NCBI GenBank assembly: GCA_018968925.1
Contig: JAGWZI010000005.1
Span: forward strand, 1 to 35,522
DNA: 35,522 bases
Reading direction: 5' to 3'
Source: Patescibacteria group bacterium
GTDB taxonomy: Bacteria; Patescibacteriota; Minisyncoccia; Phycocordibacterales; GWA1-40-21
Within the stretch, counting starts at the first letter, position 1. Each line of letters begins with the position of its first letter. The notes under the pieces are model-generated. The model was not told the origin of the DNA. It did no database searches and worked only from the letters and a program-made list of their open reading frames with translations. The position numbers and the translations under genes are program-made. Below, piece after piece: positions 3,997 to 26,856 of this stretch.

Positions 3997-4004
3997 ACGG
4001 GAAC

Positions 4005-4106: not shown

Positions 4107-4134
4107 ATCGCAGTTCGTCAATTTTTCTGAAATT

Positions 4135-5310
4135 ATGAAAAACATGAAAAATACAACCAAATATCTCGCGGTCGCAGGAATCATTTTTGCGGCGGTCTTT
4201 GCTGTTGCCATGCCGAATGCGGCATTTGCGCAGGATTATACCGGTACCGGCTATACGGATTATACTGGCACAGGTTACACTGACAATACAGGCTACACCA
4301 ACTATACCGGAACTGGATATACCGATTATACTGGCACCGGATATACTGATTATACCGGTACGGGCTACACCGACTATACCGGTACCGGCTATACAAATAC
4401 CACGGCCGGCGGTGTTTCCACTACCTATTATCCTTCCTATTCTTATGATGGCGGATATTATGGCGGCAGTTATGCCGCGTACCCGTCCCTTTCCGGCGGT
4501 GTCATCTATCCTGGCACCACGATCATTTCTCCGACGATCGGCAGCATTACTGCCAATCCGGGCGTGTCGGGCGGGGTTCTCTACGGATATGGTTCGAACG
4601 GATACTACGGATACAACTATGGTCCGCTTGACGGTTCCTGCTCCGGTTCGCTCAACACAGCGGTGAACGGCGGCACGCAGGTCACGTGGACCGGTCGCGC
4701 GACGGGCGGTAGCGGCGTCTACACCTATTACTGGAACGGTTCGAACGGTCTGCTTTCCACCGGCCAGTATGCGAGCCAGACGTATCTTTCGGGCGGCGTC
4801 GCAAGCGCGAATCTCACGATCACGTCGTCCGACGGCCAGACCGTGACGCGCAGCTGCTCGGCGACGCTCGGCAACCAGGTGCTCGCGTACAGCGCGGCGA
4901 ATCCGGGTCTTCAGTCGGTGTATCTTTCCAATATTCCGGCGACTGGCATCGGCGACGTTGCGACCGTCATCGCGTTTCTCTCGGGACTTCTGCTCTGGAG
5001 CGCGGGTCTCGCGTACGTTTTCATGAAGCGCAAACAATCGGTTGAGCCGGTTGCGATTGCGGCGACAGCGTCCGTGAAGACGAATGACCCGATCGGTTAT
5101 GTGACTGCGCAGGCATTTGCCGATGCACAGGCGATCACAGAGATCGAATCCTATGCGCGAATGAACAAGGTCATTCTCTCGAGCGATGCGACGAAAGAGA
5201 TCGCCAAGCTTGCGCGCCTCGGCAAAGCGAATGCGAAAGCGACGATCGCCAAGATGGCGTCCGACGAATGGACCGCTGTCGGCGAGAAGGATATCGAAAA
5301 ATATCTCTAA
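4135..5310 (+). CDS. Secreted surface protein with YTGTGYTD repeats, Ig-like domain and membrane anchor
   Basis: 391 residues. Residues 1-33 are a signal peptide ending AAFAQ. Residues 34-88 are an octad repeat of the type D-YTGTGYT: six full copies and one shortened copy. A Tyr/Gly/Ser-rich stretch follows, then an Ig/PKD-like beta domain (about 169-250) with a Cys pair. Near 267 comes IPATG, then a hydrophobic segment (about 272-294) and MKRKQ, the layout of a sortase sorting signal; but a further ~90-residue hydrophilic tail follows, unlike standard sortase substrates. The repeats use varied synonymous codons, so the peptide repeat is old or selected. Likely a cell-surface protein; function unknown. 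Its own promoter and terminator make it monocistronic. Confidence -1.
   Translation: MKNMKNTTKYLAVAGIIFAAVFAVAMPNAAFAQDYTGTGYTDYTGTGYTDNTGYTNYTGTGYTDYTGTGYTDYTGTGYTDYTGTGYTNTTAGGVSTTYYPSYSYDGGYYGGSYAAYPSLSGGVIYPGTTIISPTIGSITANPGVSGGVLYGYGSNGYYGYNYGPLDGSCSGSLNTAVNGGTQVTWTGRATGGSGVYTYYWNGSNGLLSTGQYASQTYLSGGVASANLTITSSDGQTVTRSCSATLGNQVLAYSAANPGLQSVYLSNIPATGIGDVATVIAFLSGLLLWSAGLAYVFMKRKQSVEPVAIAATASVKTNDPIGYVTAQAFADAQAITEIESYARMNKVILSSDATKEIAKLARLGKANAKATIAKMASDEWTAVGEKDIEKYL
4234..4398 (+). repeat. In-gene octapeptide repeat (YTGTGYTD type)
   Basis: 55 codons made of six full octads and one six-residue degenerate unit. Thr and Gly codons vary between copies, so the repeat is conserved better in protein than in DNA. 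Confidence -1.
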
Positions 5311-5318
5311 AAAGTTCG

Positions 5319-5347
5319 GAAAAAGCCCCTGAAACGGGGGCTTTTTC
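5319..5347 (+). terminator. Intrinsic terminator after the repeat-protein gene
   Basis: AAAAAGCCCC, loop TGAAAC, GGGGCTTTTT form a strong stem followed by T residues, 9 bases after the stop codon. Confidence -1.
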
Positions 5348-5352
5348 AATGC

Positions 5353-5380
5353 TTGACAGAACTGTTGTTTCGTGTATAAT
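5353..5380 (+). promoter_or_regulatory. Promoter for the two-TM membrane protein gene
   Basis: TTGACA (5353-5358), 16-base spacer, TATAAT (5375-5380), a near-perfect consensus promoter. It excludes the upstream in-frame codon at 5372 as start, because that lies inside the -10 region. Confidence -1.
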
Positions 5381-5446
5381 ATTTTCAGAGTCCGAAAGGA
5401 CGAAATTGAGATGGTCCCCGAATCGGGGAAGAAAGGGAGTCCATCA

Positions 5447-6082
5447 ATGGATTTCTTCTTTAACTTCAAGCTGAACGCGGGCAGTGCGTTCCTGTTCTGG
5501 CTCGGTCTCTTTCTGGTCGCTGCCGCGGTGGTCTACCTTGTGTGGAACCGCTACGACAACTATACGATCAGCGCGTCTGATCAAGTCCAGGATAAGAAGG
5601 TGACGGCGCGTCTCAAACACGCGTTCAAACCGCTCGGTTACTTCATGCTCTCGATTATTTTTATCTTGGGCATTATCGCCCTTTTCCAATTGATTTTTGG
5701 AGAGGGAATGAGGATCGGGTCGGGGGCGGGGACGGTCAATGTTCCCACTCCGGTTCCGACGGAAGCTCCGGCGATCCAGCCGCAAGCGTTTCAGCCGCCA
5801 GTTCCGCAAGTTGACGATTACCGCAGTAAGCACTACTGCGGCGTCGTCCTGTCGAACGTCGGCCGTCCGGCCTGCACGATCGAGGAATTGTCGAAAACGG
5901 GAAGCGTGGTCAATACGTTCCCCGTTGAAGCGAACGCTCCGAAGGTAGTGATCGGATTCAACAATCCGATCTCGGGTGCCATCCTGTCCTGCAACGGACG
6001 GGTAACAGATTTTCGTTTTGAAGGAAAGAAAGTCTGGTTCCGGTGGGATCCGATGAATAACAGGAGCAGTTCGATTGATTGA
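5447..6082 (+). CDS. Two-TM membrane protein with proline-rich linker and extracytoplasmic domain
   Basis: 211 residues, not recognised as a known family. ATG 5447 is chosen because GGGAG lies about 8 bases upstream and the alternative start overlaps the promoter. Residues ~10-35 (AFLFWLGLFLVAAAVVYLVW) and ~62-85 (FMLSIIFILGIIALFQLIF) are membrane segments. A Pro/Val-rich linker (PTPVPTEAPA, then QPPVPQ) leads to a C-terminal domain of about 90 residues with three Cys (HYCGVV, PACTIEE, LSCNG), probably outside the membrane. Strong promoter and terminator on both sides make it a single-gene unit. An envelope role is likely; nothing more specific can be supported. Confidence -1.
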   Translation: MDFFFNFKLNAGSAFLFWLGLFLVAAAVVYLVWNRYDNYTISASDQVQDKKVTARLKHAFKPLGYFMLSIIFILGIIALFQLIFGEGMRIGSGAGTVNVPTPVPTEAPAIQPQAFQPPVPQVDDYRSKHYCGVVLSNVGRPACTIEELSKTGSVVNTFPVEANAPKVVIGFNNPISGAILSCNGRVTDFRFEGKKVWFRWDPMNNRSSSID

Positions 6083-6100
6083 GAAGATTCGTGCTGTTCA

Positions 6101-6129
6101 AGCCTGCAAACATTGTTTGCAGGCTTTTA
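6101..6129 (+). terminator. Intrinsic terminator before tsaE
   Basis: AGCCTGCAAAC, loop ATT, GTTTGCAGGCT is a perfect 11-base stem followed by a T-rich run. It ends the transcript of the upstream membrane-protein gene. Confidence -1.
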
Positions 6130-6149
6130 TTTTTCCTGTTTTCATATGC

Positions 6150-6155
6150 TACAAT
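6150..6155 (+). promoter_or_regulatory. Extended -10 box of tsaE (leaderless)
   Basis: TACAAT preceded by TGC, exactly 6 bases before ATG 6162. With usual spacing, transcription would start on the A of the ATG. Confidence -1.
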
Positions 6156-6161
6156 CGCCCC

Positions 6162-6596
6162 ATGAAAATGCTGAGCGGGAGTTTGGACGAAACGGAAAAG
6201 ATCGCCGCGAAAGCGGCAAAAATTTTTCGTGAAAGGAAGCGCGCTGGCGCGCTCATTGTCGGACTCGCGGGAGACCTCGGCAGCGGCAAGACGACGTTCA
6301 CGCAGGCGCTCGCCCGAGAATTCGGCGTCGTTGACGACATCACGTCTCCCACCTACGTCATCATGAAAAAGTATGCCACCGCCGACAAAAAATATCCGAA
6401 TCTCATCCATATCGACGCGTATCGGCTGAACAAAAGCGCGGAGCTTGCCTCGCTCGGCTGGCGCAATATCGCGAACGATCCGAACAATCTGATTCTTCTC
6501 GAATGGCCGGAGCGCGTGGCGGATATCTTGCCAAAGGATCGCGTGACGATTCGCTTCTCGTTTATTTCGGAAACCGAGCGCGAGATTGATATATAA
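6162..6596 (+). CDS. tsaE: tRNA threonylcarbamoyladenosine biosynthesis ATPase TsaE
   Basis: 144 residues. TsaE hydrolyses ATP to support the TsaB-TsaD complex that makes the t6A37 modification of ANN-decoding tRNAs. Visible are Walker A GDLGSGKTT (37-45), the switch-like segment TSPTYVIM, HIDAYRL and the Walker-B-like LLEWPER, all typical of the family. An upstream in-frame start at 6075 is rejected because a terminator and the -10 box lie between it and the conserved protein; ATG 6162 gives the usual length. polA follows after 7 bases but has its own -10 box inside the end of tsaE. tsaB and tsaD are not in the window. Confidence -1.
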   Translation: MKMLSGSLDETEKIAAKAAKIFRERKRAGALIVGLAGDLGSGKTTFTQALAREFGVVDDITSPTYVIMKKYATADKKYPNLIHIDAYRLNKSAELASLGWRNIANDPNNLILLEWPERVADILPKDRVTIRFSFISETEREIDI

Positions 6597-6597
6597 T
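6592..6597 (+). promoter_or_regulatory. -10 box of polA (leaderless)
   Basis: TATAAT overlaps the tsaE stop codon and lies exactly 6 bases before ATG 6604. polA can therefore be transcribed separately from tsaE. Confidence -1.
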
Positions 6598-6603
6598 AGA
6601 CGC

Positions 6604-9018
6604 ATGGCGAAACCGGCCGAAACGAAAACGCTCGTGCTTCTCGACGTTCACGCGATCATCCACCGCGCCTATCACGCCTTGCCGGAATTCGCGACATCGA
6701 CCGGCATTCCGACGGGCGCGCTCTACGGCCTCTCGACGATGCTTCTGAAGATCATCGCCGACATAAAGCCCGATTACATCGCTGCCTGCTACGATTTGCC
6801 AAAGCCGACGTACCGCCATGAAGCCTACAAGGACTACAAGGCCGGCCGCGCGAAGACGGACGAGGCTTTGATCGAGCAGATCAAGAAATCCTACGAGATT
6901 TTCACGGCGTTCGGCATTCCGGTCTATGCGAAGGAAGGATACGAGGCGGACGACATGATCGGCACGATCGCCGAGGAATCGAAGAAAAACAAGAATCTGA
7001 ACATCGTCATCGCGTCGGGCGACATGGACACGCTCCAGCTCGTCTCGGGCGAAAAGATCCGCGTCTACACCTTGAAAAAGGGGATCAAGGACACGATCAT
7101 TTACGATGAGAAAGGCGTGAATGCCCGGTACGGCTTCGGCCCGGAACGCATTCCCGATTTCAAAGGTTTGCGCGGCGATCCGTCGGACAACATTCCGGGC
7201 ATCAAAGGCATCGGCGAGAAGACGGCGACCGAGCTCATCGAGAAGTTCGGCTCGATCGAGGACATCTACAGGAAATTGAAGAAAGACAAAGCGGCGTTCG
7301 CGAAGGCCGGCGTGAAGGATCGGATCATCGGCCTACTCGAAGCGGGCGAAGAGGAAGCGGCGTTCTCGAAGATGCTCGGCACGATCAATCGGCACGCGCC
7401 GATCGCATTTTCCTTGCCGGAAAAGACCTGGCGGGAAAACATCGACCTTGAAAAAACCGATGCCGTCTTTCGGGAATTCGAATTCCGCACCCTCGGCGCG
7501 CGGTTGAGGGAAATGCTCGGCTCGAAATCGAAAGCGGAATCGAAAAGATCGGGGACGGAAACAGCGGAGGATTTCTCGACCATGACGAAGATGGACGAAA
7601 CCGTCGCCTTCAGCTATCCCAATCTCGACCGGCTCTCCGTCATGCTCTGGCTCGTCAACTCGAACATCGCAGCGCCGACAGGCGAGGACGTGTTCCAATT
7701 CACGAAGACAAAAGACGCGACCGAAGCGGAAAAAATTCTCTTCGCCGAGCTCGAGAAGCGCGACCTCATGCGCGTCTGGCAGTGGATCGAGGAGCCGCTC
7801 ATTCCGATCGTGAAACAAATGGAAGAAAATGGCATCAAGGTCGACAAGGCGGAACTTGCGCGGCTTTCGGCGGAATACCACGAGAAACTTTCCGCGATCG
7901 AGAAAAAGATCTGGAAGCTCGCCGGAGCAGAATTCAACGTGAATTCGCCGAAACAGCTCGGCGAAGTGCTCTTTACCAAGCTCGGCCTTGCGCCGAAGAA
8001 CCAGAAGAAGACCGGTTCGGGCGCGCTTTCGACGAAAGAATCCGAGCTCGAGAAAATGCGAGACATGCACCCCGTCGTGCCGCTCATTTTCGAATACCGC
8101 GAGTACCAGAAACTCTTATCGACCTACATTGACGCCATTCCGCCCATGCTCGATGTCGGCTCGCGCCTCCATGCCAGATTCCTTCAGGCGGGAACGACGA
8201 CCGGCCGCATGTCATCCGCCGAGCCGAACCTGCAGAACATTCCGAACTCGACCGATCTCGGTCGCGCCATCCGCGCGGCGTTCGTGCCGGAGAAAGGCGC
8301 GAAGCTGCTCGCCCTCGACTATTCGCAGGCGGAGCTCCGCATCGCGGCGTTCCTCTCGGGCGACGAGAAAATGATCGGGATCTTCAAGAAGGGCGAGGAC
8401 GTGCACAGCGCGGTCGCGGCGGCGGTCTTCAACGTGCCCTTGGACAAAGTCGACCACGAAATGCGGCGCCGGGCGAAAGTCATAAATTTCGGCATCATGT
8501 ACGGCATGGGCGTGAACGCGCTCAAATCGAATCTGAACTCGACCCGCGAAGAAGCGCAGCGGTATCTGAACGATTATTTCGCGACATTCTCGACGCTCGC
8601 CGGCTATCTCGACCGGTTGAAAATCGAAGCGAAAGAAAAAGGCTACACGACGACGCTTTTCGGCCGGCGCAGATATTTTGAAGGACTGCGGAGCAAGATC
8701 CCGTACATCCGCGCGATGGCGGAGCGCATGGCGGTGAACGCGCCGATCCAGGGGACGGAAGCGGATTTCACGAAGCTTGCCATGGTGAAGATCGACGGAT
8801 TTTTGAAGAAAGAAAAATTGGAAGAAAAAGTGAAACTGATCCTCCAGGTGCACGACGAGCTCGTCTTCGAAGCGGATGAAAAAGTCATTGACGCCGTCGC
8901 GCCGAAAATAAAGAAGATCATGGAAACGCTCGTGCCAGCGGACGCGACGAAAGGTGTCGTCCTCAAGGCCGAGGCATCGGAAGGGAAGAACTGGAAGGAG
9001 ATGAAAAAGCTCACCTGA
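6604..9018 (+). CDS. polA: DNA polymerase I without a 3'-5' proofreading domain
   Basis: 804 residues, well below the ~930 of the E. coli enzyme. It fills gaps and removes primers in repair and lagging-strand synthesis. Residues 1-~290 form the 5' nuclease domain (YEADDMIG, GDMDTLQLV, and a helix-hairpin-helix GLRGDPSDNIPGIKGIGEKTA, quoted here as its key parts GDPSDNIPGIKG). The middle ~100-150 residues are short and lack the DxE and other exonuclease motifs. The polymerase domain has motif A DYSQAELR (572-579), motif B RRRAKVINFG (from 621) and motif C QVHDELV (748-754). ATG 6604 (MAKPAE) fits the -10 box; an in-frame codon at 6586 lies within tsaE and the promoter. The stop overlaps the convergent trigger factor gene by 8 bases. 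Confidence -1.
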   Translation: MAKPAETKTLVLLDVHAIIHRAYHALPEFATSTGIPTGALYGLSTMLLKIIADIKPDYIAACYDLPKPTYRHEAYKDYKAGRAKTDEALIEQIKKSYEIFTAFGIPVYAKEGYEADDMIGTIAEESKKNKNLNIVIASGDMDTLQLVSGEKIRVYTLKKGIKDTIIYDEKGVNARYGFGPERIPDFKGLRGDPSDNIPGIKGIGEKTATELIEKFGSIEDIYRKLKKDKAAFAKAGVKDRIIGLLEAGEEEAAFSKMLGTINRHAPIAFSLPEKTWRENIDLEKTDAVFREFEFRTLGARLREMLGSKSKAESKRSGTETAEDFSTMTKMDETVAFSYPNLDRLSVMLWLVNSNIAAPTGEDVFQFTKTKDATEAEKILFAELEKRDLMRVWQWIEEPLIPIVKQMEENGIKVDKAELARLSAEYHEKLSAIEKKIWKLAGAEFNVNSPKQLGEVLFTKLGLAPKNQKKTGSGALSTKESELEKMRDMHPVVPLIFEYREYQKLLSTYIDAIPPMLDVGSRLHARFLQAGTTTGRMSSAEPNLQNIPNSTDLGRAIRAAFVPEKGAKLLALDYSQAELRIAAFLSGDEKMIGIFKKGEDVHSAVAAAVFNVPLDKVDHEMRRRAKVINFGIMYGMGVNALKSNLNSTREEAQRYLNDYFATFSTLAGYLDRLKIEAKEKGYTTTLFGRRRYFEGLRSKIPYIRAMAERMAVNAPIQGTEADFTKLAMVKIDGFLKKEKLEEKVKLILQVHDELVFEADEKVIDAVAPKIKKIMETLVPADATKGVVLKAEASEGKNWKEMKKLT

Positions 9019-10069
9019 TCTCTTCAAGGAATTTGATCACCGCTTCATTCACGAGGATCATTTCGACGTAGGCGCGGACGCGGTCTTCGCTTGCATCCTT
9101 GTAGGTTTCCATGAGGTGTTTCACTTCGCGTTCCATCTCTTCCTTGTTCGGCTCGATCTTTTCGGCGATGGCGATCTTTTGCAGGAGGATCTCGGTCTTG
9201 GCGCGCTTCTCGGCGTCGGGACGCCATTCCTTCTTCAGATCGTCCCATGATTTCTTGATGTGCTTCAGATATTCCTCCGGCTGAAGGCCCATGCGCGCGA
9301 TGTCGGCCTTGAACTGACCTTCCATTTTGGCGAGCTCGCTCTCGATGAGCATTGCCGGCATGTCCGCTTTCGTTTCGGCGACGAGCTTTTCGAGGATCTC
9401 GCCGCGGCGGCGGTCCTTCGCCCGCATCTCTTTTTCCTTTGCGATATTGTCTTTGAGCTTCATGCGAAAATCGGCGACGTCTTTGAAATCGCCCAATTTC
9501 TTCACGAACGCATCCGTGATCTCCGGCAATTCCTGCTTTTCGTCCGCGGAATGCTTCTCGCCGTCTTTATGCGAATGGTTCTGGTTCGCGTACATGCGGC
9601 GGATTTCCTCGATTGTGTCGTCCACCTGTTTGTCCGTCACCGCTTCGATTTCGAGCTTTTTCGCGTTCTCTTTTTTCGCGATTTTTTTGTAGTCGGGAAG
9701 TTTCGCCTCCGGCATGACGGTGAGCGTGATCGAAAATTCGACCGGAGTGCCCGGCGCGATTTTGGTGACGCGGATCTCGGGCCGGCCGAGGAAATTCGCC
9801 TTCGCTTCAAGGACGATCTCCGGCGTGAATTCGTGGATCGCTTCGTCCGCCGCTTCTTCGAGGAGGCCAAGCTCGCCGATCTTTTCGCGCAGGATCGAAT
9901 CCGGCACGTTGCCTTTGCGGAAACCCGGCAATTCGGCCGCATCTTTTATTTTCCTGAAGGCTTTTTCCTTGAACGGCTCGAGTGCCTCGGCGGCGACGGA
10001 CGCGCGGATCTCAAGGAGGGAATCGGGGAGCTTTTTAGTGCCGAGGATCTTGTACGGTTTTGCTTGCAT
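9011..10069 (-). CDS. tig: Trigger factor lacking the PPIase domain
   Basis: 352 residues against ~430 in typical trigger factors. This ribosome-bound chaperone meets nascent chains at the exit tunnel. Residues 1-~115 carry the ribosome-binding domain with signature GFRKGNVP. The chain then passes through VTDKQVDDTIEEIRRMYA to a short His/Asp/Glu-rich linker (HSHKDGEKHSADEK) and on to the C-terminal helical arms (DAFVKKLGDFKDVADFR onward), so the FKBP-type isomerase domain is missing. It should still be a chaperone, as the known activity resides mainly in the N and C domains. It is the last gene of the minus-strand nusA group, 16 bases after the small membrane-protein gene. No clear terminator follows; its stop lies inside the end of polA. 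Confidence -1.
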   Translation of the reverse strand: MQAKPYKILGTKKLPDSLLEIRASVAAEALEPFKEKAFRKIKDAAELPGFRKGNVPDSILREKIGELGLLEEAADEAIHEFTPEIVLEAKANFLGRPEIRVTKIAPGTPVEFSITLTVMPEAKLPDYKKIAKKENAKKLEIEAVTDKQVDDTIEEIRRMYANQNHSHKDGEKHSADEKQELPEITDAFVKKLGDFKDVADFRMKLKDNIAKEKEMRAKDRRRGEILEKLVAETKADMPAMLIESELAKMEGQFKADIARMGLQPEEYLKHIKKSWDDLKKEWRPDAEKRAKTEILLQKIAIAEKIEPNKEEMEREVKHLMETYKDASEDRVRAYVEMILVNEAVIKFLEEIR

Positions 10070-10085
10070 GGCGTGCGCTTTTTCT

Positions 10086-10322
10086 TTATTTCAAATTCTT
10101 GACGCCGCTGTCGAGGTTCGTGAAATCGAGACTCGTCGCTTCATTCTGGATATTGTTCAGGTCCTGGCTCGACGAGGCGAGCGACGCACGGAGCGCGGCG
10201 ATCTGGTTCTGCTTCGCGATGCGCGCCTTGAAAAAGTAGAACGCGCCGACAACAAGGACGAGGATCACGATGATGATCCCGATCGTGGTCATGATGTCGC
10301 TTGTTTCTTTTTCTTCGCTCAT
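10086..10322 (-). CDS. Small single-pass membrane protein
   Basis: 78 residues, unrecognised. Layout: short acidic N-terminus (MSEEKETSD), one membrane segment (about 10-31, TTIGIIIVILVLVVGAFYFF), then a basic-to-neutral helical tail ending SGVKNLK. The likely topology is a short N-terminus and an exposed ~45-residue tail. It sits between a secreted Ala/Ser-rich protein gene (14 bases upstream) and trigger factor (16 bases downstream), so these probably share a transcript. A GTATAG box lies about 6 bases before the ATG on the minus strand, so it could also have its own leaderless start. Clean start, stop and hydrophobic profile support a real gene. Confidence -1.
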   Translation of the reverse strand: MSEEKETSDIMTTIGIIIVILVLVVGAFYFFKARIAKQNQIAALRASLASSSQDLNNIQNEATSLDFTNLDSGVKNLK

Positions 10323-10336
10323 CGTTTTCTATACTA

Positions 10337-12379: not shown

Positions 12380-15300
12380 ATGATGAAAAAAACATTCGCG
12401 TATCTCATTGTCGCGCTCGCTTGCGCCGCGCCGTCCGCGGCGGCCGTCGCCCAGTCGGCGCCGACGCTCGCGACGCCGCATACGGCCCAGGCGTCGCTCG
12501 CTACGTCAACGTCGGCCATTTTGCCTGCGGCCTCCGGACCGGTTTCAATACAGAACGCGAAGATAACGGACCAGAACGGCCGGACATTTTCTTTGTCGTT
12601 CGATGTGGTCAATGCGTCCGCCGCCGTCCAGCCCGAAGTTTCGTACGTTCTCCACTTGCGGCAGGTCGTTTCGTCGACGTCGGCGTATATCATCGACGAG
12701 AAGACGTACGCGGATTCGTTCACGCTCACCGGTAACGGCCGCGTGACGAAGACCGTATCCTACACTGCGCCGGATGCCGTTGCGGCGGGACGATACCTCA
12801 TTTCCATCGAGGTTGGCAATACGAGCGGTCTCAATCTCGCGACGTTCGATCTCGGTCCGGTGACGCTCCAAGCGTCATCCGCGAACGCCGCCCTCATCAT
12901 GCATGAGACCTGCCGCGCCTCGATCGCCGGCAGCCGGGCCGGCGGATTCCCGGTCGCATCGACGTCGGACGCGATCAACGAAACATGCCAGGTGCGGAGC
13001 ACGTTCCCAGGTGCCGTGGCGGTCGTTCCGTATTTCGAGGTCCATTATCTGAGCCCGTACGGCGCCGTCGCCGCGACAAGCACCGGTGCGGCGATGAATC
13101 TTGCAAGCGGGACGAATGCGGTGACCGTGCCGGTGCCGAAAGGGCCGGTTCCGCAATACTATTATGTGCTGTTCTCGTTCAAGACAACGGACGGCGCGAC
13201 GGTATCGAACACCAATTCGTTCATGTATGCGGTCGCCGGACTGACGGGTTCGATCCAGAATGCCACGTTCGACAAGCCGTATTACGCGAGCGGCGATACG
13301 GCGAAGATAACCGTCTTTGCGCCGCTCTATGAATATCCGAAGCAGTCCGCGGCTCCTTCCGGCGTGCTTGCCGCCGCCCTCTATGACGGAAACGGCCGGC
13401 AGTGCGCCGCCACGACCACCGTTTCTCTCGGCGGCATAAATGATGCGCTCTCGTTTCCCGTTTCCTCCGCATGTGTCAATCCCACCGTGCACCTCGTCCT
13501 GTCCGCGACGGACGCCGCGGGAGCCCAGGTCGTTCTGGATACGAAAGATTTCAAAGTCATCACTCCGGCGGCCGCTCTGCCCCAGCCGAACGTCGTGCTT
13601 ATCGCCGTGATCATTCTCCTTCTCATCATCGTTTTTCTTTTCTTGTTCGTTCGTTCGTTCGGCAGGAGAAAACCGGCGATGCCCGCGATGATGATAATTC
13701 TCCTTGTCGTTACGACGTTCGCCCTGTTCGGCATTCAGGCCAAGCCGGCCGCGGCCATCAGCTGCTTCCCGAACGCGAACGATGCGAATAGCGACGGCTA
13801 TACCGGCTACTTCTTCTGCGAAAGCACGCAGGATCCGATCGTCTGTTCGGCAAACTGGACCGGCGGCTGTCCGATGAACTGGACCGGCAGGAACGTTTCC
13901 TATTACGGTTACGGCGGCGGTTTCGTCGGCTGGCCGAACACGAATTCGCTCGCCTACGGCAATTACCTGCAGGTCTGCGATGACAACGGCGCGTATTGCC
14001 AGAATGTCTATTTCCAGAATAGCGGCAGCCAGTTCCAAACGCAAACCTTCATTACTTCCGCGCCGAGCACGGTAAATTACGGCGCGACGGCAAGCATTTC
14101 GTGGAATTCCCGCGGTGCGAGCCAATGCAATATTTGGGAGGACGGATCGTGGCTCGCGCCGAACGCCGGTACGTGGGGAACGGTAACGACCCGCGCGATC
14201 ACGGCGACGTCGACAGTGACCATCACCTGCGACGATGCGTGGACGCCTAACGACAGCAAGGGAACGGCGACCGCGACGATCGTACCGCTCGCCCAACCGA
14301 CGGCATCCATCTCGTCCAATCCCGCGAGCGTTCCGGCGGGGACCGGCTCGACGCTGTCCTGGAACTCGACAAATGTGAACGCATGCGCGATCACGGCGAA
14401 CGGCGCGCCATGGAACGGAGCGACCGGCACGCCGAGCTACGCCCTGCAATTCGGCTCCGCGGGATCCGGCAACGGGCAGTTCAACGCCCCGTCCGACGCC
14501 GCCGTCGATCCGTCATCGGGCAACGTCTATGTCATGGATACCGGCAATCATCGCGTCGAGAAATTCAATTCCTCCGGCACCTATCTTTCCCAATTCGGTT
14601 CCTCGGGCAACGGCGGCAACGGTCAGTTCTTCACCATGTATCGCGGCATTGCGGTCGATTCGTCCGGAAACGTCTATGTCGCCGACAACGTCTACGCCCG
14701 CATCGAGAAATTCAATTCTTCCGGTTCCTATGTTTCGCAGATCGGCATCAGTCCCATCTTCTACGATTTTGCCAGGGATGCATCGGGGAATTTCTACGTG
14801 CTCGAATACAGCGGCAGCCCGGGCGGCGCGCAGGTGGAAAAGCTGAATTCCTCCGGTTCCCACGTTTCAACCTTCGGATCTTCCGCCGGCGGTTTGGCTC
14901 TGCATAACGCGAACGGCATATCCGTCGATTCGTCCGGAAACGTCTATGTCGCCGACAGCGGCAACAATCGCATCGTGAAATTCAATTCCTCCGGCACCTA
15001 TCTTTTGTCATTCGGCTCCGCGGGATCCGGCAACGGGCAGTTTTCCTATCCTGTCGGCCTTGCCGTTGACCCGCTTGGAAACGTCTATGTCGCCGATGCG
15101 AACCACAACCGCGTTGAAGAGTTCGATGCAAACGGCAATTATTTGACGCAATTCGGCTCCGCGGGATCCGGCAACGGGCAGTTCAATACCCCCTACGGAT
15201 TGGCCATGAATCCGGTCGGCAGCCTCTTGTACGTCGCCGATTACTCGAACAACCGGGTCGAGCAGTTCACGGTTCCGAGCGTCGGCATTTCCGGCAGCGC

Positions 15301-16042
15301 ATTTTCCGGCAACCTGGCCTCGACGACCGTGTTCGCCATTTCCTGCACCGGATCGAACGGTTCGGCCGGCGCCTCGACGACCGTGACGGTCACCGGCGGC
15401 AAGCCGAAACCGCACGCGCCGATCGTTCCGTGGAGCGGCGCGTATGCCACGTCGACCGGCTGCGGAGCGTCGCAGGGCATCGCCTTCTCCTGGGAGATCG
15501 GCGATCCGACGGACACCGTGACGGAATACGACATATTCCGGAACAGCGCCTTCCTCGCCTCGACGACTTCGACCACGTATCTCGATACCGGTCTTGCGAC
15601 GGGCACGTACGCCTATGCGGTCGACGCGTGCAACGGCGCGGGCAATTGCTCGACGCAGGTATCCCTCGGTTCCGTCTCGTATGTCCCGGCAGCATGCCAG
15701 CCGCCTGCACCGCAGACCCAGGGCACGACCTGCAGCCTTTCCGTCTCGCCGCTCGCCACCTCGTCAAGCCCGAGCAGGATCTTCGTGAACCGGCAAGTGA
15801 CGTGGACTGTCGTCCCAAATGCGACGGGCACTATCACGAGCGCCATAATTGATTGGAGCGGAACAGATATACCGACGCAAAGATTCTTTCAGTTGAGTCC
15901 GTATGCTAAAATTTATACAACTATTGGTCCAAAAATCATCAATGCTTCCTCCACTGTTACCGCTGGCGGAACTATCTACACGGCAAACTGTACCGCAAGC
16001 ACCACCTCAATTCTTGATCAGGGAACAAACCAGGAGATTTAA
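12380..16042 (+). CDS. Giant surface protein with six-bladed NHL propeller, Ig-like and FN3 domains
   Basis: 1220 residues. Residues 1-~26 are a signal peptide. Beta-rich domains run to ~400. Two membrane segments follow (about 404-425 and 437-455), separated by VRSFGRRKPAMPAM; the second looks like another signal peptide ending KPAAA. After a Cys-rich stretch (ISCFPN, FFCEST) comes an Ig-like domain (about 555-630), then a second Ig-like domain starting ~640 that is interrupted by six NHL blades (about 685-963, each with GNVYVAD-type and R-V-E-K-F-type strands) and resumes at ~965-1010. An FN3-like domain (about 1014-1103) and a beta-type C-terminus follow. Probably an anchored adhesin or carbohydrate/protein-binding surface factor. 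The last ~65 codons are AT-richer than the rest. Function is inferred from domains only. Confidence -1.
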   Translation: MMKKTFAYLIVALACAAPSAAAVAQSAPTLATPHTAQASLATSTSAILPAASGPVSIQNAKITDQNGRTFSLSFDVVNASAAVQPEVSYVLHLRQVVSSTSAYIIDEKTYADSFTLTGNGRVTKTVSYTAPDAVAAGRYLISIEVGNTSGLNLATFDLGPVTLQASSANAALIMHETCRASIAGSRAGGFPVASTSDAINETCQVRSTFPGAVAVVPYFEVHYLSPYGAVAATSTGAAMNLASGTNAVTVPVPKGPVPQYYYVLFSFKTTDGATVSNTNSFMYAVAGLTGSIQNATFDKPYYASGDTAKITVFAPLYEYPKQSAAPSGVLAAALYDGNGRQCAATTTVSLGGINDALSFPVSSACVNPTVHLVLSATDAAGAQVVLDTKDFKVITPAAALPQPNVVLIAVIILLLIIVFLFLFVRSFGRRKPAMPAMMIILLVVTTFALFGIQAKPAAAISCFPNANDANSDGYTGYFFCESTQDPIVCSANWTGGCPMNWTGRNVSYYGYGGGFVGWPNTNSLAYGNYLQVCDDNGAYCQNVYFQNSGSQFQTQTFITSAPSTVNYGATASISWNSRGASQCNIWEDGSWLAPNAGTWGTVTTRAITATSTVTITCDDAWTPNDSKGTATATIVPLAQPTASISSNPASVPAGTGSTLSWNSTNVNACAITANGAPWNGATGTPSYALQFGSAGSGNGQFNAPSDAAVDPSSGNVYVMDTGNHRVEKFNSSGTYLSQFGSSGNGGNGQFFTMYRGIAVDSSGNVYVADNVYARIEKFNSSGSYVSQIGISPIFYDFARDASGNFYVLEYSGSPGGAQVEKLNSSGSHVSTFGSSAGGLALHNANGISVDSSGNVYVADSGNNRIVKFNSSGTYLLSFGSAGSGNGQFSYPVGLAVDPLGNVYVADANHNRVEEFDANGNYLTQFGSAGSGNGQFNTPYGLAMNPVGSLLYVADYSNNRVEQFTVPSVGISGSAFSGNLASTTVFAISCTGSNGSAGASTTVTVTGGKPKPHAPIVPWSGAYATSTGCGASQGIAFSWEIGDPTDTVTEYDIFRNSAFLASTTSTTYLDTGLATGTYAYAVDACNGAGNCSTQVSLGSVSYVPAACQPPAPQTQGTTCSLSVSPLATSSSPSRIFVNRQVTWTVVPNATGTITSAIIDWSGTDIPTQRFFQLSPYAKIYTTIGPKIINASSTVTAGGTIYTANCTASTTSILDQGTNQEI
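14450..15183 (+). repeat. Near-exact DNA repeats inside the NHL propeller
   Basis: A 32-base unit encoding FGSAGSGNGQF occurs identically at 14450-14481, 15011-15042 and 15152-15183. A second block around GATTCGTCCGGAAACGTCTA (20 bases shown) recurs near 14657 and 14929. DNA-level identity implies recent blade duplication or gene conversion. Confidence -1.
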
Positions 16043-16109: not shown

Positions 16110-16658
16110 TTATGGATTTGGCATTTGTATAGCCGCCGCCATATCATTACTAGTTAATGTTGATGGGTTTGCATACGTACTATTTGTGAACATGATCTGA
16201 TCCGGATTCGTCCACGATACCGTTACGGTTCCAGACGCGGTGTTGATCACATCCATCCGTACCCAGTCACCCGACCCCGACGTAAGCGTTACCTGGTAAG
16301 GCAAGCTCGCGTTCAGTGTCGTTACCGGCGTTGAACCATCACCAAGATCGGTAATGATTTTATCAACGCTTGATAAGGTTGGACTCGTGACTTTCCAACC
16401 GATTGTATGTGGTACAGGCGTCACGGTCACCGTCGGCGTCGCGCTCGCAGTGCCTGTCGGCGTTCCGCTCGGCGTACTCGACGGCGTGGCCGACGGAGTC
16501 ACCGTAGCGGCGATCGTCGGCGAAGACAACGTGCTCGTCGGCGTCGCTACCACGGTGGACGAGTTCGGATTCGGACTGGCCGGACCTTGCTGTCCGCAGG
16601 AGCTCAAAAAGAGAGCGCCTGCCCCCAACAACATCATCATAACAAAGAACTTTTTCAT
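16110..16658 (-). CDS. S/T/P-rich lipoprotein A
   Basis: 182 residues. Residues 1-21 are a lipoprotein signal with lipobox LSSC (Cys21), so the mature protein should be lipid-anchored. A long Thr/Pro/Ser/Ala linker (about 30-90, of the type PSATPSSTPSGTPT) leads to a C-terminal beta-like domain of ~90 residues (HTIGWKVTS onward, VRMDVINTASGTVTVSW). The linker should hold the domain away from the cell and could be glycosylated; that is inference. Start ATG 16658 is preceded by AGGAGGG at good spacing. The gene resembles the lipoprotein at 21616 in signal, linker, ribosome-binding region and start (ATGAAAAAGTT). It has a strong promoter, a ~54-base leader and a terminator. Function unknown. Confidence -1.
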   Translation of the reverse strand: MKKFFVMMMLLGAGALFLSSCGQQGPASPNPNSSTVVATPTSTLSSPTIAATVTPSATPSSTPSGTPTGTASATPTVTVTPVPHTIGWKVTSPTLSSVDKIITDLGDGSTPVTTLNASLPYQVTLTSGSGDWVRMDVINTASGTVTVSWTNPDQIMFTNSTYANPSTLTSNDMAAAIQMPNP

Positions 16659-16842: not shown

Positions 16843-16865
16843 ATATGTGTCTGCTGCCAGCTTGT

Positions 16866-17654
16866 ATGGCTTCAAGCGATAATTTTAATTCCATCTTAGT
16901 CCGGTACGGAGCACAAGCCAATCTGCTCTGCTTTTTCGGCGCGCTTCACTCGAATGATCCGAAGCACCCCCAATTTAGCCTGCTGAAAAATACATGGAAT
17001 TTTTTTGAACAAGGACCTGGCAATAAGGTTGTCGTGATAGAAAGCACTCGGAATGCGCAAAATAATTTTGAAATTTTTGAAAATTTTGAAGAAGCGGTAA
17101 AACAGTGTGGCGAACCGGGAGGAATGTATGTCCTTTCGCGCACAGCCGGCATCGAAGTGATTTTTGGAGAAATTGATGCCGACGAACAGAGGAAAATGCT
17201 TTTAACGGAATTTGACGCCGAAAATGTCGCATATGCATGTCTGATGCAGAGTGCCGCTGTCTGGTTTCGTGCCAAACGAAAATTGTCATTCACTGAAGCA
17301 CTGGTAAATTATGTGAAAAAGGAAACCATGTTTTCTTCCATATACGGCTTTGAACCGACCATGGATTGGCTGTACGAAAAACACAAAGAACTTTTTGGCA
17401 ATCAGCCGATTGACGACGAAAGATTTGTCCTGTCGATCTGCGATCCTCGCAAAAAAGATACCTTGATCAATAAAATTGTTTCTAAAAGGACTGAGATTCG
17501 GAATGAACACCTTCTCGCAATCATCAATGATAATATGCATGTAGGGAGGAATATTTTTGTCATGTACGGCCGAGGCCATCTTGATATGCTGTATGATGAG
17601 TTGATAAAGTCTACCTTTGCTCATGATCCCCATATTCATAAAACTACAGAGTGA
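16866..17654 (+). CDS. TraB/ChaN-like protein (tentative)
   Basis: 262 residues; recognition is tentative. The N-terminal part has VVVIESTRNAQ, then EEAVKQCGEPGGMYVLSR and GIEVIFGE; near the C-terminus HLLAIINDNMH-GRNIFVMYGRGHLDML resembles the TraB/PrgY/ChaN pattern, in which an R-x3-hydrophobic helix precedes a GxGH motif. Members of that fold include peptide-pheromone inhibitors, haem-binding ChaN and possible metalloproteases, so no reaction can be assigned. No signal peptide or membrane segment is visible, so it should be cytoplasmic. It is AT-richer than the surrounding genes. The SAM methyltransferase gene starts inside its 3' end (32-base overlap), implying translational coupling. Confidence -1.
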   Translation: MASSDNFNSILVRYGAQANLLCFFGALHSNDPKHPQFSLLKNTWNFFEQGPGNKVVVIESTRNAQNNFEIFENFEEAVKQCGEPGGMYVLSRTAGIEVIFGEIDADEQRKMLLTEFDAENVAYACLMQSAAVWFRAKRKLSFTEALVNYVKKETMFSSIYGFEPTMDWLYEKHKELFGNQPIDDERFVLSICDPRKKDTLINKIVSKRTEIRNEHLLAIINDNMHVGRNIFVMYGRGHLDMLYDELIKSTFAHDPHIHKTTE

Positions 17655-22273: not shown

Positions 22274-22924
22274 ATGAATAGAGCCGTCCGTTCGGTCAAA
22301 AAAAAAGGAGGTTTCACGCTCGTCGAGCTGCTTGTCACCATTTCCATTTTCGTTGTCATTACCGGCGTCGTCCTCTTCAGCCAGAACGGTTTCAATAATA
22401 ATATCCTCTTGCAGAACCTCGCTTACGATATCTCGCTTTCTATCCGGCAGGCGCAGTATTACGGCGTTGACGTGAACGAGTCGCAGTCGGCGCCGAATTC
22501 CCAGTCCTCGTTTTCCCCGTACGGCATTTATTTTAATCTCAGCTCGAGCAATCAGAGTTACATTTTTTTCAACGATATCAGCGGACCTGCCGGCGGACCC
22601 GACGGAAAATACAATAACGGCCAGGTCACTTCATGCCCTACGGCAAATTATTCCGAATGCGTCAAGAGATACGTCGTCGGCAACGGCAATTCCATCCAGG
22701 GCATCTATGCGAGCCAAAGCGGCCAGTGCGTCGTGGGCGGTGCGCCGGCATGCGCGCAGATCACTGGTGGATTCACCATCCTCTTCAAGCGGCCGAACCC
22801 GAATGCCATCATGACGGACGACAGCGGCGCGACGTACAACTATGCCGATATCCGCGTTGCATCGCCTGCAGGCGCCACGCGCGACGTGATCGTCACCGCC
22901 ATCGGCCAGATCTACGTGCAGTAG
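22274..22924 (+). CDS. Type IV prepilin (GspH/FimT-like)
   Basis: 216 residues. The leader MNRAVRSVKKKGG is followed by FTLVELLVTISIFVV: cleavage after Gly13, Glu at +5 and a hydrophobic N-terminal helix, the class III prepilin signal. The globular part is ~170 residues with four Cys (CPTANYSEC, GQCV, PACAQ) that may form disulfides, and an ADIRVASPAGATRDV-type strand common in pseudopilins. It is first in the pilus operon and has its own leaderless -10. The leader codons contain nine A residues followed by GGAGG, a possible slippage or pausing site. It could be the major pilin or a minor one; order and size do not decide this. Confidence -1.
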   Translation: MNRAVRSVKKKGGFTLVELLVTISIFVVITGVVLFSQNGFNNNILLQNLAYDISLSIRQAQYYGVDVNESQSAPNSQSSFSPYGIYFNLSSSNQSYIFFNDISGPAGGPDGKYNNGQVTSCPTANYSECVKRYVVGNGNSIQGIYASQSGQCVVGGAPACAQITGGFTILFKRPNPNAIMTDDSGATYNYADIRVASPAGATRDVIVTAIGQIYVQ

Positions 22925-22939
22925 CGGGGTGTTTTCTGG

Positions 22940-22945
22940 TATACT
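22940..22945 (+). promoter_or_regulatory. Extended -10 box before the second pilB
   Basis: TGG-TATACT, 7 bases before ATG 22953. It allows pilB and the genes behind it to be transcribed separately from the first pilin. Confidence -1.
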
Positions 22946-22952
22946 AATGCCG

Positions 22953-24704
22953 ATGCACGTTGAGGGCAAACAACTCAAGGATTTCCTTGTCGACGCCGGG
23001 CTTGTTTCGCGCGCCGAATACGACGATCTGGAAAGCCGGATCAAGAAAGGCGCGCTCAAGGAGTCCGTGGAAAAGACGCTCGTCTCGGCGGGCAAGATCA
23101 CCGAAGACGATCTGCGCCGGGCACAGGCGTACGTTCTCGGCATTCCGTTCGTCGATCTGAAAGGCCAGAAGATAGAGCCGGCCGTGTTGTCGCTCATTCC
23201 CGAGCCGGTCGCCCGCAAGAACAACATCATCGCGTTCAAGAAGAACGAGGATTCGCTCGAAGTGGCGATGCTCGACGTGAACGATCTCGCCGCGATCGAA
23301 TTCATCCGGAAAAAAGTCGGGCAGAAGATCCTGCCGCGCCTCACCGACGCCGAATCGATCAAGAACGCGCTCCTCCAGTACCAGAAGAGCCTGAAAGCCG
23401 AGTTCGGCGACCTCATCCAGAAGGACATCCTGGCGCTCAAGCCGATGGGCGCGGGCAGCGACCTCGGCGAGGGATCGCTCAAGAAGATCGCCGAAGATCT
23501 GCCGGTCGTCCGCATCGTCGAGACGCTCTTGAAGCATGCCATCCTCCAGAACGCGTCCGACATCCACCTCGAGGTTTCGGAGGATGCGATGCTCGTGCGC
23601 TACCGCATCGACGGCATTCTCCACGACGCGATGGCCCTGCCGAAATCCGCGGCGACGTCCATCACCGCGCGCATCAAGGTGCTCGCGAACCTGAAGCTCG
23701 ACGAGAAGCGCCTGCCGCAGGACGGCCGGTTCAACATAGAATTGAACGGAGAAAAGGTCTCCTTCCGCGTTTCGATCATTCCGACGTATTTCGGCGAGAA
23801 GACGGTCATGCGCGTCCTGCGCGAGAGCGTCGGCGGCTGGTCATTGGAGTCCATGGGCTTTCACGGCGTCAATCTCGAGCGCATCCACGAAGGCATGCGC
23901 CGGGCGAACGGCATGATCCTCACGACGGGGCCTACCGGTTCCGGCAAGACGACGACGCTCTACACCATTTTGGAAATTTTGAACACGCCGAACGTCAACA
24001 TCGCGACGATCGAGGACCCGATCGAGTACCAGATGGCGCGCGTGAACCAGACGCAGGTGCGGCCGGACATCGGCTTTACATTCTCGAACGGCCTCCGCTC
24101 GCTCGTCCGCCAGGATCCGGACATCATCATGGTCGGCGAGATCCGCGACAATGAGACCGCGTCCCTCGCCGTGAACGCCGCGCTCACCGGTCACCTCGTC
24201 CTTTCGACACTCCACACCAATTCGGCCGCCGGCTGCGTGCCGCGTCTCATCGACATGAAGATCGAGCCGTTCCTCGTCGTCTCGACGATCAACGTGGTCA
24301 TGGGCCAGCGCCTTGTCCGCAAACTTGCGAAGTCGAAGGAAAAATATTTCCTCTCGAAGACCGAACTCGAATCGCTCGGCAAGATCGTCGATCTCGACCG
24401 CGTCATGCAAATCCTCAAGTCGGAGCATATCGTCGCTCCTGACGCGACATGGGAGAAGACGGCTTTCTACAAAGCCGTCGAATCCGCGGACGCGAAAGAC
24501 GGTTACGCCGGCCGCATCGGCATTCACGAGGTGATGACCATGTCATCGGCCATCCAAGATCTCGTCATGAAGGGCGCGACGTCGCAGGAGATCGAAACGC
24601 AGGCGCGCAAAGAAGGAATGATTACCATGGTCGAGGACGGCATCTTCAAGTGCGTCGAAGGACTGACCACGATCGAGGAGGTCCTCCGCGTCGTGACGGA
24701 ATAA
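22953..24704 (+). CDS. pilB: Type IV pilus assembly ATPase PilB (form without zinc cysteines)
   Basis: 583 residues from ATG 22953. The start is chosen because the -10 box at 22940-22945 excludes the in-frame ATGs at 22929 and 22947. Residues 1-~150 are an MshEN-type domain (LVDAGLVSRAEYDDL, AYVLGIPFVDL). The core has Walker A GPTGSGKTT (326-334), IATIEDPIEY, DIIMVGEIRDNE and GHLVLSTLHTN. The C-terminal insert (KLAKSKEKYFLSKTEL to KDGYAGRIGIHEVM) contains no cysteine, unlike the PilB at 2314. It drives pilus extension from the cytoplasm together with the PilC platform encoded 3 bases downstream. Confidence -1.
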   Translation: MHVEGKQLKDFLVDAGLVSRAEYDDLESRIKKGALKESVEKTLVSAGKITEDDLRRAQAYVLGIPFVDLKGQKIEPAVLSLIPEPVARKNNIIAFKKNEDSLEVAMLDVNDLAAIEFIRKKVGQKILPRLTDAESIKNALLQYQKSLKAEFGDLIQKDILALKPMGAGSDLGEGSLKKIAEDLPVVRIVETLLKHAILQNASDIHLEVSEDAMLVRYRIDGILHDAMALPKSAATSITARIKVLANLKLDEKRLPQDGRFNIELNGEKVSFRVSIIPTYFGEKTVMRVLRESVGGWSLESMGFHGVNLERIHEGMRRANGMILTTGPTGSGKTTTLYTILEILNTPNVNIATIEDPIEYQMARVNQTQVRPDIGFTFSNGLRSLVRQDPDIIMVGEIRDNETASLAVNAALTGHLVLSTLHTNSAAGCVPRLIDMKIEPFLVVSTINVVMGQRLVRKLAKSKEKYFLSKTELESLGKIVDLDRVMQILKSEHIVAPDATWEKTAFYKAVESADAKDGYAGRIGIHEVMTMSSAIQDLVMKGATSQEIETQARKEGMITMVEDGIFKCVEGLTTIEEVLRVVTE

Positions 24705-24707
24705 ATT

Positions 24708-25925
24708 ATGGAAAAATTCAATTTTCAGGCGATCGGCAAGGACGGCGAGGCGTACGAAGGCGTCCGCGAATCGGCGGATAAGTTTTCCCTCTACAACGAG
24801 CTTCGGACGGAAGGCAGCACGCTCGTCACCGCCGCGTCGGTGCACGAAAAGCGGCATTGGATCGATTCGGTCACGGCGCTCTTCGGCGGCGTGCCGGAAT
24901 CGGAGAAGATCATCTTCACGAAGAACCTCGGCTACATGATCGACGCGGGGCTCCCGGTCGCGAAGAGCCTCTCGGTGCTCGAGCGGCAGGCGCGCAACGC
25001 GCGGTTCAAGAAGGTCATCTCTGCGCTCGAGGCGGAGATCAGGAAAGGCGAGACGCTCTCCGATGCCGCCGCGCAGTATCCGGAAGTCTTTTCGCACGTC
25101 TTCATTTCCATGGTGCGCGCCGGCGAGGAATCGGGCAAGCTCGCCGAATCGCTCGCCATCACGGGCGAGCAAATGGACGGCACGCACAAGCTCAAAAAAA
25201 AGATCATCGGCGCGATGATCTATCCGTCCATCATCATCGCGCTCATGGCGGCGATCGGCGTGCTCATGCTCGTCTACGTCGTGCCATCCATCACCACAAC
25301 CTTCCAAAGTTTGCATGAAACGCTTCCGTTCTACACCCAGCTTCTGATCGGTGCGAGCAGTTTCCTCAAGAACAACATCCTGCTCGTCCTCGGCGCTGTT
25401 GTCGCCGTGGCGGCCGGCATCTACGGCATGGCCATGTCGAAAAAAGGGAAGCGGGTGATCGATTTCGTATCGCTCAGACTGCCGGTCGTGGGCGATCTCG
25501 TCAAAGAGACGAATTCGGCGCGCGTTGCCCGGACGCTCTCATCGCTGCTTTCGTCGGGCGTCGCCTTCGACAAGGCGATCATCATCACGTCGGACGTCGT
25601 CGGCAACGGCTACTTCCGCGACATTCTCGCCGAGGCCGGAACGCGCGTCGAGAAAGGCGAGACGATCTCGAGCGTTTTCCTCGAACATACGAAGATCGTG
25701 CCGGATTTCGTCGGCGAGATGATGTCGGTCGGCGAGGAAACCGGCCGCCTGCCGGCCATGCTCATGGAAACGGCGACGTATTACGAGAACTCCGTCGACC
25801 AGAAGACGAAGGACATGTCGACGATCATCGAGCCGGTCCTCATGATCGCGATCGGCGTCGCCGTCGGCTTTTTCGCCCTCGCCATCATCAAGCCGATCTA
25901 TTCGGTGATGGATAACATTTCATGA
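24708..25925 (+). CDS. pilC: Type IV pilus inner-membrane platform protein PilC
   Basis: 405 residues, the normal length. Two T2SSF domains are seen, one starting near FTKNLGYMIDAGLPVAKSL and one near ETNSARVARTLSSLLSSGV, each with the conserved G-x-P/V core and GEESGKL or GEETGRL motifs. Three membrane segments are visible (about 165-190, 215-240 and 375-400). PilC is the platform that couples PilB to pilin insertion and removal. Its ATG follows the pilB stop by 3 bases, so the two are translationally linked. Recognition is secure. Confidence -1.
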   Translation: MEKFNFQAIGKDGEAYEGVRESADKFSLYNELRTEGSTLVTAASVHEKRHWIDSVTALFGGVPESEKIIFTKNLGYMIDAGLPVAKSLSVLERQARNARFKKVISALEAEIRKGETLSDAAAQYPEVFSHVFISMVRAGEESGKLAESLAITGEQMDGTHKLKKKIIGAMIYPSIIIALMAAIGVLMLVYVVPSITTTFQSLHETLPFYTQLLIGASSFLKNNILLVLGAVVAVAAGIYGMAMSKKGKRVIDFVSLRLPVVGDLVKETNSARVARTLSSLLSSGVAFDKAIIITSDVVGNGYFRDILAEAGTRVEKGETISSVFLEHTKIVPDFVGEMMSVGEETGRLPAMLMETATYYENSVDQKTKDMSTIIEPVLMIAIGVAVGFFALAIIKPIYSVMDNIS

Positions 25926-25926
25926 T

Positions 25927-26364
25927 ATGCGCCGCGGCTTCTCATTCGTCGAATTCCTGGTCGTCCTCGCCATCATCTCCGTCGTCGCGGCGGCGGCGAG
26001 CTTCTCGTTTTCGAATTTGAACGGCGGGCAGGTCGTCGACAAAGCGGCGCTCGCCGTCTTTTCCGTCCTTGCCGGCGCGCATTCGTCCGCCGTTTCGTCC
26101 AAGGACGCGGCGAATGTCGGCGTGCGCATCCTGCAAGGAGCCGTCGTCTCGTTTGAGAACAGTTACGGAACGTCGGATGCGACCTACACGCTTTCGAACC
26201 TCGCCGGCATCAGCACGTCGAGCGGCATCGGCACAGATATCATTTTTTCTGACCTTTACGGCACGACGACGGCGAGCGGAACCGTGACCGTTTATCTGCT
26301 TTCGAATCCGCAAGTCTCGAGCACGATCCAGGTTTTTTCTACCGGCATCATCCAGCGCAATTAA
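25927..26364 (+). CDS. Minor prepilin-like protein
   Basis: 145 residues. Very short leader MRRG, then FSFVEFLVVLAIISVV with Glu at +5: a prepilin signal. The globular part is small, rich in Ser/Thr/Val, without Cys. Starts 1 base after the pilC stop and is followed directly by the next prepilin gene. Likely a minor pilin that helps prime the pilus. Confidence -1.
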   Translation: MRRGFSFVEFLVVLAIISVVAAAASFSFSNLNGGQVVDKAALAVFSVLAGAHSSAVSSKDAANVGVRILQGAVVSFENSYGTSDATYTLSNLAGISTSSGIGTDIIFSDLYGTTTASGTVTVYLLSNPQVSSTIQVFSTGIIQRN

Positions 26365-26856
26365 ATGAAAACGCAGAGGAACAAAGGCATGACGCTCGTG
26401 GAAATGCTCGTCGGCATGGCGATTTTTTCGGTGACGCTTTCCGCCCTCGTCATTGCGGCGAATCTCTACATTTCGAACGCCGGCGAGAGCCTCAAATCGG
26501 CCAAAGCCGCGTATCTTGCGGAAGAGGGAATCGAAGCGGTCGAGACGATCCGCGACAACGGTTGGTCCGAGATAAGCGCGCTGTCGACGTCGACGTCGTA
26601 TTACCTTTCCTGGAGCATCGCGTCATCGACATCCGGCGTCTGGGGCACGACGACCGCGGCGACATCGACCGACGGTTTCGCACGGACATTCCGGCTCGGC
26701 GCGGTGAACCGCGATTCGACGGGGCATATCGTGACGATCGGCGGCACGGCCGATGCGAACACGCGTCTCGTGACGGTGTCGGTCGCGTGGCTTGCCAAGA
26801 CCGGCACGACGACCAAGAGCCTTTCGGCGTACATTACGAACGTCTTCGGAAACTGA
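26365..26856 (+). CDS. Minor prepilin PilV-like
   Basis: 163 residues. Leader MKTQRNKG, then MTLVEMLVGMAIFSV; cleavage after Gly8, Met at +1 and Glu at +5. The segment AYLAEEGIEAVETIRDNGW matches the PilV-type region after the N-terminal helix, which is the basis for the name. Its ATG follows the previous stop with no gap and its TGA overlaps the next ATG. Confidence -1.
   Translation: MKTQRNKGMTLVEMLVGMAIFSVTLSALVIAANLYISNAGESLKSAKAAYLAEEGIEAVETIRDNGWSEISALSTSTSYYLSWSIASSTSGVWGTTTAATSTDGFARTFRLGAVNRDSTGHIVTIGGTADANTRLVTVSVAWLAKTGTTTKSLSAYITNVFGN

Follow-up and report, generated by a model that had tools for sequence, protein, structure and literature searches.

The window is the whole 35,522-nucleotide stretch of DNA analysed here. 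Its genes run in the order polA, trigger factor and nusA (the last two on the minus strand), a large surface-protein gene and a small lipoprotein-like gene on the minus strand. Further genes follow, including a methyltransferase, an ABC exporter and an M16 peptidase, and then a type IV pilus locus with a pilin-like gene, pilB, pilC and two more pilin-like genes. An AI-2E-type transporter and methionyl-tRNA synthetase are encoded downstream of the pilins. The small lipoprotein-like protein (16110-16658, minus strand), just after the surface-protein gene, has a long T/P/S linker. The 269-aa protein encoded at 16845-17654 on the plus strand shows no Pfam match; by eye, its GALHSND and GRGHL motifs recall TraB/TIKI-type proteins. 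Coordinates of the features are summarized in Table 1.

Table 1. Features of the surface-protein gene and of the pilus locus in the window
Feature	Position	Strand	Basis
Gene of the 1220-aa surface protein with nested domains	12380..16042	+	Single open frame over the whole protein
Signal-peptide-like N-terminus, residues 1-26	12380..12457	+	Read from sequence
Hydrophobic segments, residues about 404-424 and 436-455	13589..13744	+	Sequence; relatives alike in layout
Preceding Ig-like domain, uninterrupted	14051..14239	+	Profile A2, model positions 2-61, E 4e-7
Split Ig-like domain, N-terminal half (strands A, A', B and C), residues 639-683	14294..14428	+	Profile A2 and modelled strands
Inserted six-bladed NHL propeller, residues 687-964	14438..15271	+	Pfam, BLAST, AlphaFold and structure matches
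Split Ig-like domain, C-terminal half (three strands), residues 966-1005	15275..15394	+	Profile A2 and model
FN3-like stretch behind the host domain, residues about 1014-1103	15419..15688	+	By eye, and resemblance to a G005 protein (query 969-1119, 41%)
Conserved C-terminal domain, PKD-like by eye, residues 1127-1220 (NKIYTTVGxK...C.TTT...EI)	15758..16039	+	E 1e-30
Pilin-like	22274-22924	+	N_methyl/T2SSE/T2SSF Pfam matches across 22274..26856
pilB	22929-24704	+	Type IV pilus locus
pilC	24708-25925	+	Type IV pilus locus
Pilin-like, two genes	25927-26364, 26365-26856	+	Type IV pilus locus

After its signal-peptide-like start, the surface protein reads as an extracellular part of about 380 residues followed by the hydrophobic pair. 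The second half of this pair (the pair lies at window 13589-13760) resembles a signal peptide with the cleavage motif AKPAAA/ISC, and relatives retain such a segment (KVFADT, NVKADT). Judging from this internal signal-peptide-like segment, the protein may be cut in two there after export. The middle part of the protein is the variable one in this gene family, with high divergence among relatives. The FN3-like stretch has no Pfam match. The C-terminal domain, with its NKIYTTVGxK motif, Cys, TTT and final EI or EF, is without a Pfam name and is common to the surface proteins of the genus that adjoin pilB. It finds matches in 22 of 197 genomes of the order, and the strong ones are in its own genus only.

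The preliminary description of this DNA proposed that a six-bladed NHL propeller fills the loop of one Ig-like domain, and both its positions and its gap of about 280 residues are correct: QPTASISS begins at residue 639 (base 14294), WNGATG at 678, VPSVGISG at 965 and VTVTGG at 1002. The inserted part is a complete propeller. Pfam PF01436 (NHL) matches it with 113.6 bits in five stretches, above the curated cut-off, and the remaining third blade is degenerate; the model has 24 strands in a ring of six four-stranded blades. The 840-base stretch between the Ig halves can be aligned over its full length with free-standing NHL propellers. In BLAST, residues 1-4 to 280-282 of 283 are aligned with stand-alone NHL proteins of archaea, Nitrospirota and others (49.8% for an NHL protein of a Nitrososphaeraceae archaeon), and alignments to unrelated proteins mostly end at the start of the Ig halves. 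Structure-search matches concern this propeller part of the model. VIA-align superposes model residues 48-331 on the NHL domain of TRIM3 (PDB entry 7qrw) with Z 38 and an rmsd of 2.2 over 273 residues, and the best matches are the non-enzymatic NHL domains of TRIM3 and Thin.

The two flanks of the propeller are complementary halves of a single Ig-like domain. Profile A2, built from 12 uninterrupted Ig-like domains of other genomes and run over the whole 579 kb genome of the window, matches exactly three places: the two halves and the intact preceding domain. The N-terminal half (14306-14428) covers model positions 1-38 with E 9e-9 and the C-terminal half (15284-15385) covers positions 38-71 with E 4e-5. 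The break falls at a single model position, and no position is lost or doubled between the halves. A second profile of 25 domains, from which loci of the same genus were excluded apart from the congener fragment L010, gives 32.4 bits for the N-terminal half (positions 1-43) and 20.2 bits for the C-terminal half (32-72). When the flanks are joined by script, the joined sequence matches intact Ig domains across the junction with 9e-13 and 33 hits. One tryptophan and two cysteines are invariant in the 12 intact domains, and W25, C33 and C353 of the host (numbered in the 374-aa segment) align with these columns. The two cysteines, residues 669 and 989, flank the propeller one on each side and so could hold the halves together; a C669-C989 disulfide probably clamps them, as judged from these conserved columns. 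The propeller enters after strand C, ahead of the strands bearing the second cysteine. Duplicated bases were sought at both ends of the insertion, and CCGAGC alone is in common, which is not meaningful. No Pfam Ig-like model matches the 1220-aa protein up to E 1, and among the 12 intact relatives one touches Pfam aBig_2, at 0.035. The family has no Pfam model and no sequence-level match among solved structures, so the assignment of an Ig-like fold rests on the sequence pattern and one model.

The model agrees with the profiles. In a single-sequence AlphaFold run on residues 553-1107, only the propeller (685-966) is confident and the Ig flanks are below 50; an alignment was therefore needed. 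With alignment A4, which holds Ig rows only, drawn from viral contigs, residues 637-1010 are modelled with pLDDT 81 and pTM 0.73, and the Ig halves are mostly at 80-92. Four Ig strands (641-647, 650-652, 658-664 and 668-673) are followed by the 24 propeller strands (687-964) and three Ig strands (971-975, 983-991 and 994-1005). Alignments that combined NHL with Ig rows, or complete with half Ig rows, put the Ig halves in wrong positions and were discarded. The NHL loci from genome contigs hold no copy of the Ig-like family of the host. The rows of A4, in which the short D strand is misplaced, already joined the Ig halves before modelling, and the model therefore depends in part on the sequence argument. 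Since the halves were joined beforehand and the structure matches concern the propeller, the case for nesting rests first on the sequence profiles.

Two other accounts of this arrangement have to be weighed. The flanks could be two separate degenerate or partial domains with the propeller merely in tandem between them, and the low score of the C-terminal half in the congener G004 (4.6 bits) would fit this. However, the halves in the window are complementary at one model position without overlap or loss, neither is a complete sandwich in the model, and joined they match intact domains at 9e-13, making separate flanks very improbable. Two separate complete domains are seen neither in the profiles nor in the model. 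The genome is a draft of 31 contigs, which leaves room for an assembly chimera of an NHL gene and an Ig gene. Such a fusion is extremely improbable: the frame of 1220 codons is unbroken, both Ig halves are complete, GC3 is alike in the propeller (0.73) and neighboring parts of the gene (0.69-0.84), and the same arrangement exists in the independent genome G004. This base composition also gives no sign of recent import of the propeller. One domain interrupts another and both are complete, as in domain insertion elsewhere, and we hold with high confidence that the propeller is nested inside one Ig-like domain.

The geometry of the fold suggests how the host could accommodate such an insert. In a closed propeller both ends lie within one blade, a few angstroms apart, and for this reason a propeller can take the place of a loop without forcing the host open. 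The first propeller strand stands before the first full blade, as it would if it closed the last blade, which it probably does. Closed on itself in this way, the propeller would bring its ends side by side, and adjacent ends would let it be grafted into a single loop without preventing the host from folding. In the standard Ig fold, the C-to-D or C'-to-E loop points towards the C-terminal side and adjoins the following domain. The preliminary description placed the propeller at the tip of the stalk, and this is not supported. Since the FN3-like stretch and the C-terminal domain (1127-1220) come after the host, the propeller is a lateral branch in mid-chain.

The nesting is not unique to this protein. 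In G004, one of the 12 genomes of the family, an Ig domain of this kind carries an NHL propeller in the corresponding loop (residues 607-1002, locus L009). The second profile gives 19.6 bits for its N-terminal half beside the low C-terminal score given above, and its junction match is 1.6e-6. In G001, another congener, a short Cys-rich insert breaks up an Ig domain of this kind; the split domain lies in L011 (85-2790, minus strand) at residues about 595-737, and the insert has about 60 residues (SGCTNLFGSWNSASSTCRV...KYYCTIP) and shows no Pfam match. A 437-aa protein of G003 was considered as the empty-site counterpart of the G004 protein and rejected, as its Ig domain better matches the third Ig domain of that protein. 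The tree of NHL propellers is compatible with one insertion or with two; a grouping of the window and G004 propellers is not rejected and even has a higher likelihood (p-AU 0.787). NHL propellers are uncommon in these genomes. The Ig-plus-NHL segment finds matches in 48 of 397 sampled genomes of the order, many by the Ig part alone, and in 20 of 384 genomes of the class at E 1e-6. G004 alone, the window aside, gives a single alignment across both Ig halves and the propeller.

A junction test on 99 propeller-bearing frames, whose candidates were inspected by eye, pointed to other hosts. It supports nesting of a propeller within a G004 domain of the AWSxNIGW type (1.2e-12) and of propellers within FN3-like domains of Candidatus Formimonas warabiya, a Bacillota (5e-25 and 4e-16). 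A separate check gave FN3-like hosts of propellers in two proteins of G243, a genome of the same order (3e-20 and 9e-13). In these FN3-like hosts the propeller looks to occupy the corresponding loop, under putative strand names; unlike in the window, the host there is FN3-like and not of this Ig-like family. The G243 propellers lie in L043 (6540-9764) and L046 (1491-4727); L046 seems to hold two such nests and L044 one further. The Formimonas frame (L074, 1-9468) is open over 3156 aa and has several NHL propellers, at least two of them nested in FN3-like copies, and the FN3-like host domain is also present intact in the same protein. The 2188-aa protein of L056 in G004 (3765-10328, plus strand) is another member of the surface-protein set encoded at the pilus locus; a subtilase domain lies close to its N-terminus, and an AWSDxIGWISF-type domain in it hosts a Vgb-lyase-like propeller. 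In a 1509-aa protein of G001 (L060, 12949-17475, minus strand), a propeller of MTSSDGINWT repeats at residues about 988-1272 lies apparently within a GWVCDPDDYS...CGGFPNHSYVF domain; no intact copy of this host was found.

The surface-protein family is present at the pilB-pilC-pilin locus in five congeneric genomes. Immediately before pilB, G001, G003, G004 and G005 encode large surface proteins that share this C-terminal domain. The type IV pilus locus would thus have a slot for variable surface proteins, to which the gene in the window seems to belong. The window keeps the order nusA, surface protein, pilB, pilC and pilins, with about 6.9 kb of other genes between the surface-protein gene and pilB. 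In G003 and G004, lnt is found just upstream of the surface-protein/pilB block. In G005 (L010/L238, 1-1023), on a contig cut at its start, Kelch repeats stand ahead of Ig, FN3-like and C-terminal domains of the same kinds, and pilB comes directly after them.

These features suggest a role in binding. NHL propellers mostly bind proteins or RNA, and NHL and related propellers elsewhere also act as enzymes. Given the binding habit of NHL propellers and the position at a pilus locus, an adhesin or receptor is the best guess, with chances that are even or slightly better for this role taken alone. The whole reading, that of a pilus-locus surface protein in which an Ig-like stalk domain hosts a complete NHL propeller and this propeller gives an adhesin or receptor its ligand-binding face, is the one we favor, with some reserve. 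The protein would be secreted or held in the membrane at the cell surface, and the complete six-bladed propeller would sit in the loop after strand C of the stalk domain. The host would stay a stalk unit, with the propeller as a side branch presenting its ring face outward, most likely to a ligand, and perhaps contributing to attachment. Ig-like-fold surface proteins and type IV pili have been proposed to attach Patescibacteria to their hosts (PMC10936435). The small genome suggests that the organism of the window is a member of this phylum, as the preliminary description also supposed.

Alternatively, the propeller could be a passive spacer or shield: without a specific ligand, it would give the stalk width or protection and be tolerated because its loop is permissive. 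The host loop does accept differing inserts in congeners (NHL in G004, Cys-rich in G001) and the gene family varies strongly in its middle part. Decay would be expected of a spacer, though, whereas this propeller retains all six blades, modelled as a complete ring, and we regard a passive part as rather unlikely. The propeller could also be an enzyme or cofactor-binding module on the stalk, like peptidyl-alpha-hydroxyglycine lyase or virginiamycin B lyase. At the level of the fold, the lyase PAL is among the matches (3fvz, Z 28), and the neighboring protein of a congener has a Vgb-lyase-like propeller. An enzyme is nevertheless quite improbable, with non-enzymatic NHL domains as top matches, no catalytic residues identified and NCBIfam matches far below cut-offs.

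The favored adhesin or receptor resembles several known systems in part. The NHL propellers of TRIM2/3/71, Thin, Brat and the PknD sensor domain have the same six-bladed fold, aligned over the whole length of the insert. Going by their titles, the solved NHL chains among the matches listed have NHL alone or in tandem (filamin-NHL in TRIM71), and no title describes nesting in the loop of an Ig-like domain. In integrins the beta-I domain is inserted in the Ig-like hybrid domain. The alpha-I domain is inserted in the alpha subunit (PMC12422189). As in integrins, a whole binding domain would be grafted into another surface domain here; the insert in integrins is a vWA-type domain, whereas in the window protein it is a propeller and the host is Ig-like. 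PilY1 is a propeller-bearing tip adhesin of type IV pili. PilY1 and PilC tip adhesins share with the window protein a propeller and a type IV pilus system, but the propeller is of a different type, no vWA domain is seen, and a Pfam scan of the window protein (13 families up to E 1) has no match to the PilY1/PilC family. Fibrillar adhesins consist of a stalk and an adhesive domain (PMC9210967). The window protein likewise has a predicted stalk, Ig-like and FN3-like, with possible membrane segments and a candidate binding domain, but here this domain is nested within a mid-chain stalk domain. Domain insertion as such is common, being reported for 20% of multidomain proteins in a survey whose main text is silent on propellers and immunoglobulin domains (PMC13114784). 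The literature searched, which covered few subscription papers, yielded no account of an Ig-like domain with an NHL propeller nested in it. The nesting seen here is a variant of this common arrangement.

A broader and more tentative idea, which we consider unlikely, is that the Ig-like or FN3-like loop is a socket for swappable whole domains (the NHL propeller, the Cys-rich module and perhaps other propellers) that changes cell recognition, carried by fast-changing stalk proteins encoded at the type IV pilus locus of the lineage. Two such nested-propeller surface proteins are found at the pilus locus, where the proteins of partner recognition are mostly unknown. A whole propeller can ride in the loop of a stalk domain, and among the surface proteins of small-genome bacteria this came about on more than one occasion. 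Were the loop indeed such a socket, with binding domains exchanged in it, its inserts would give a concrete list of candidate recognition modules.
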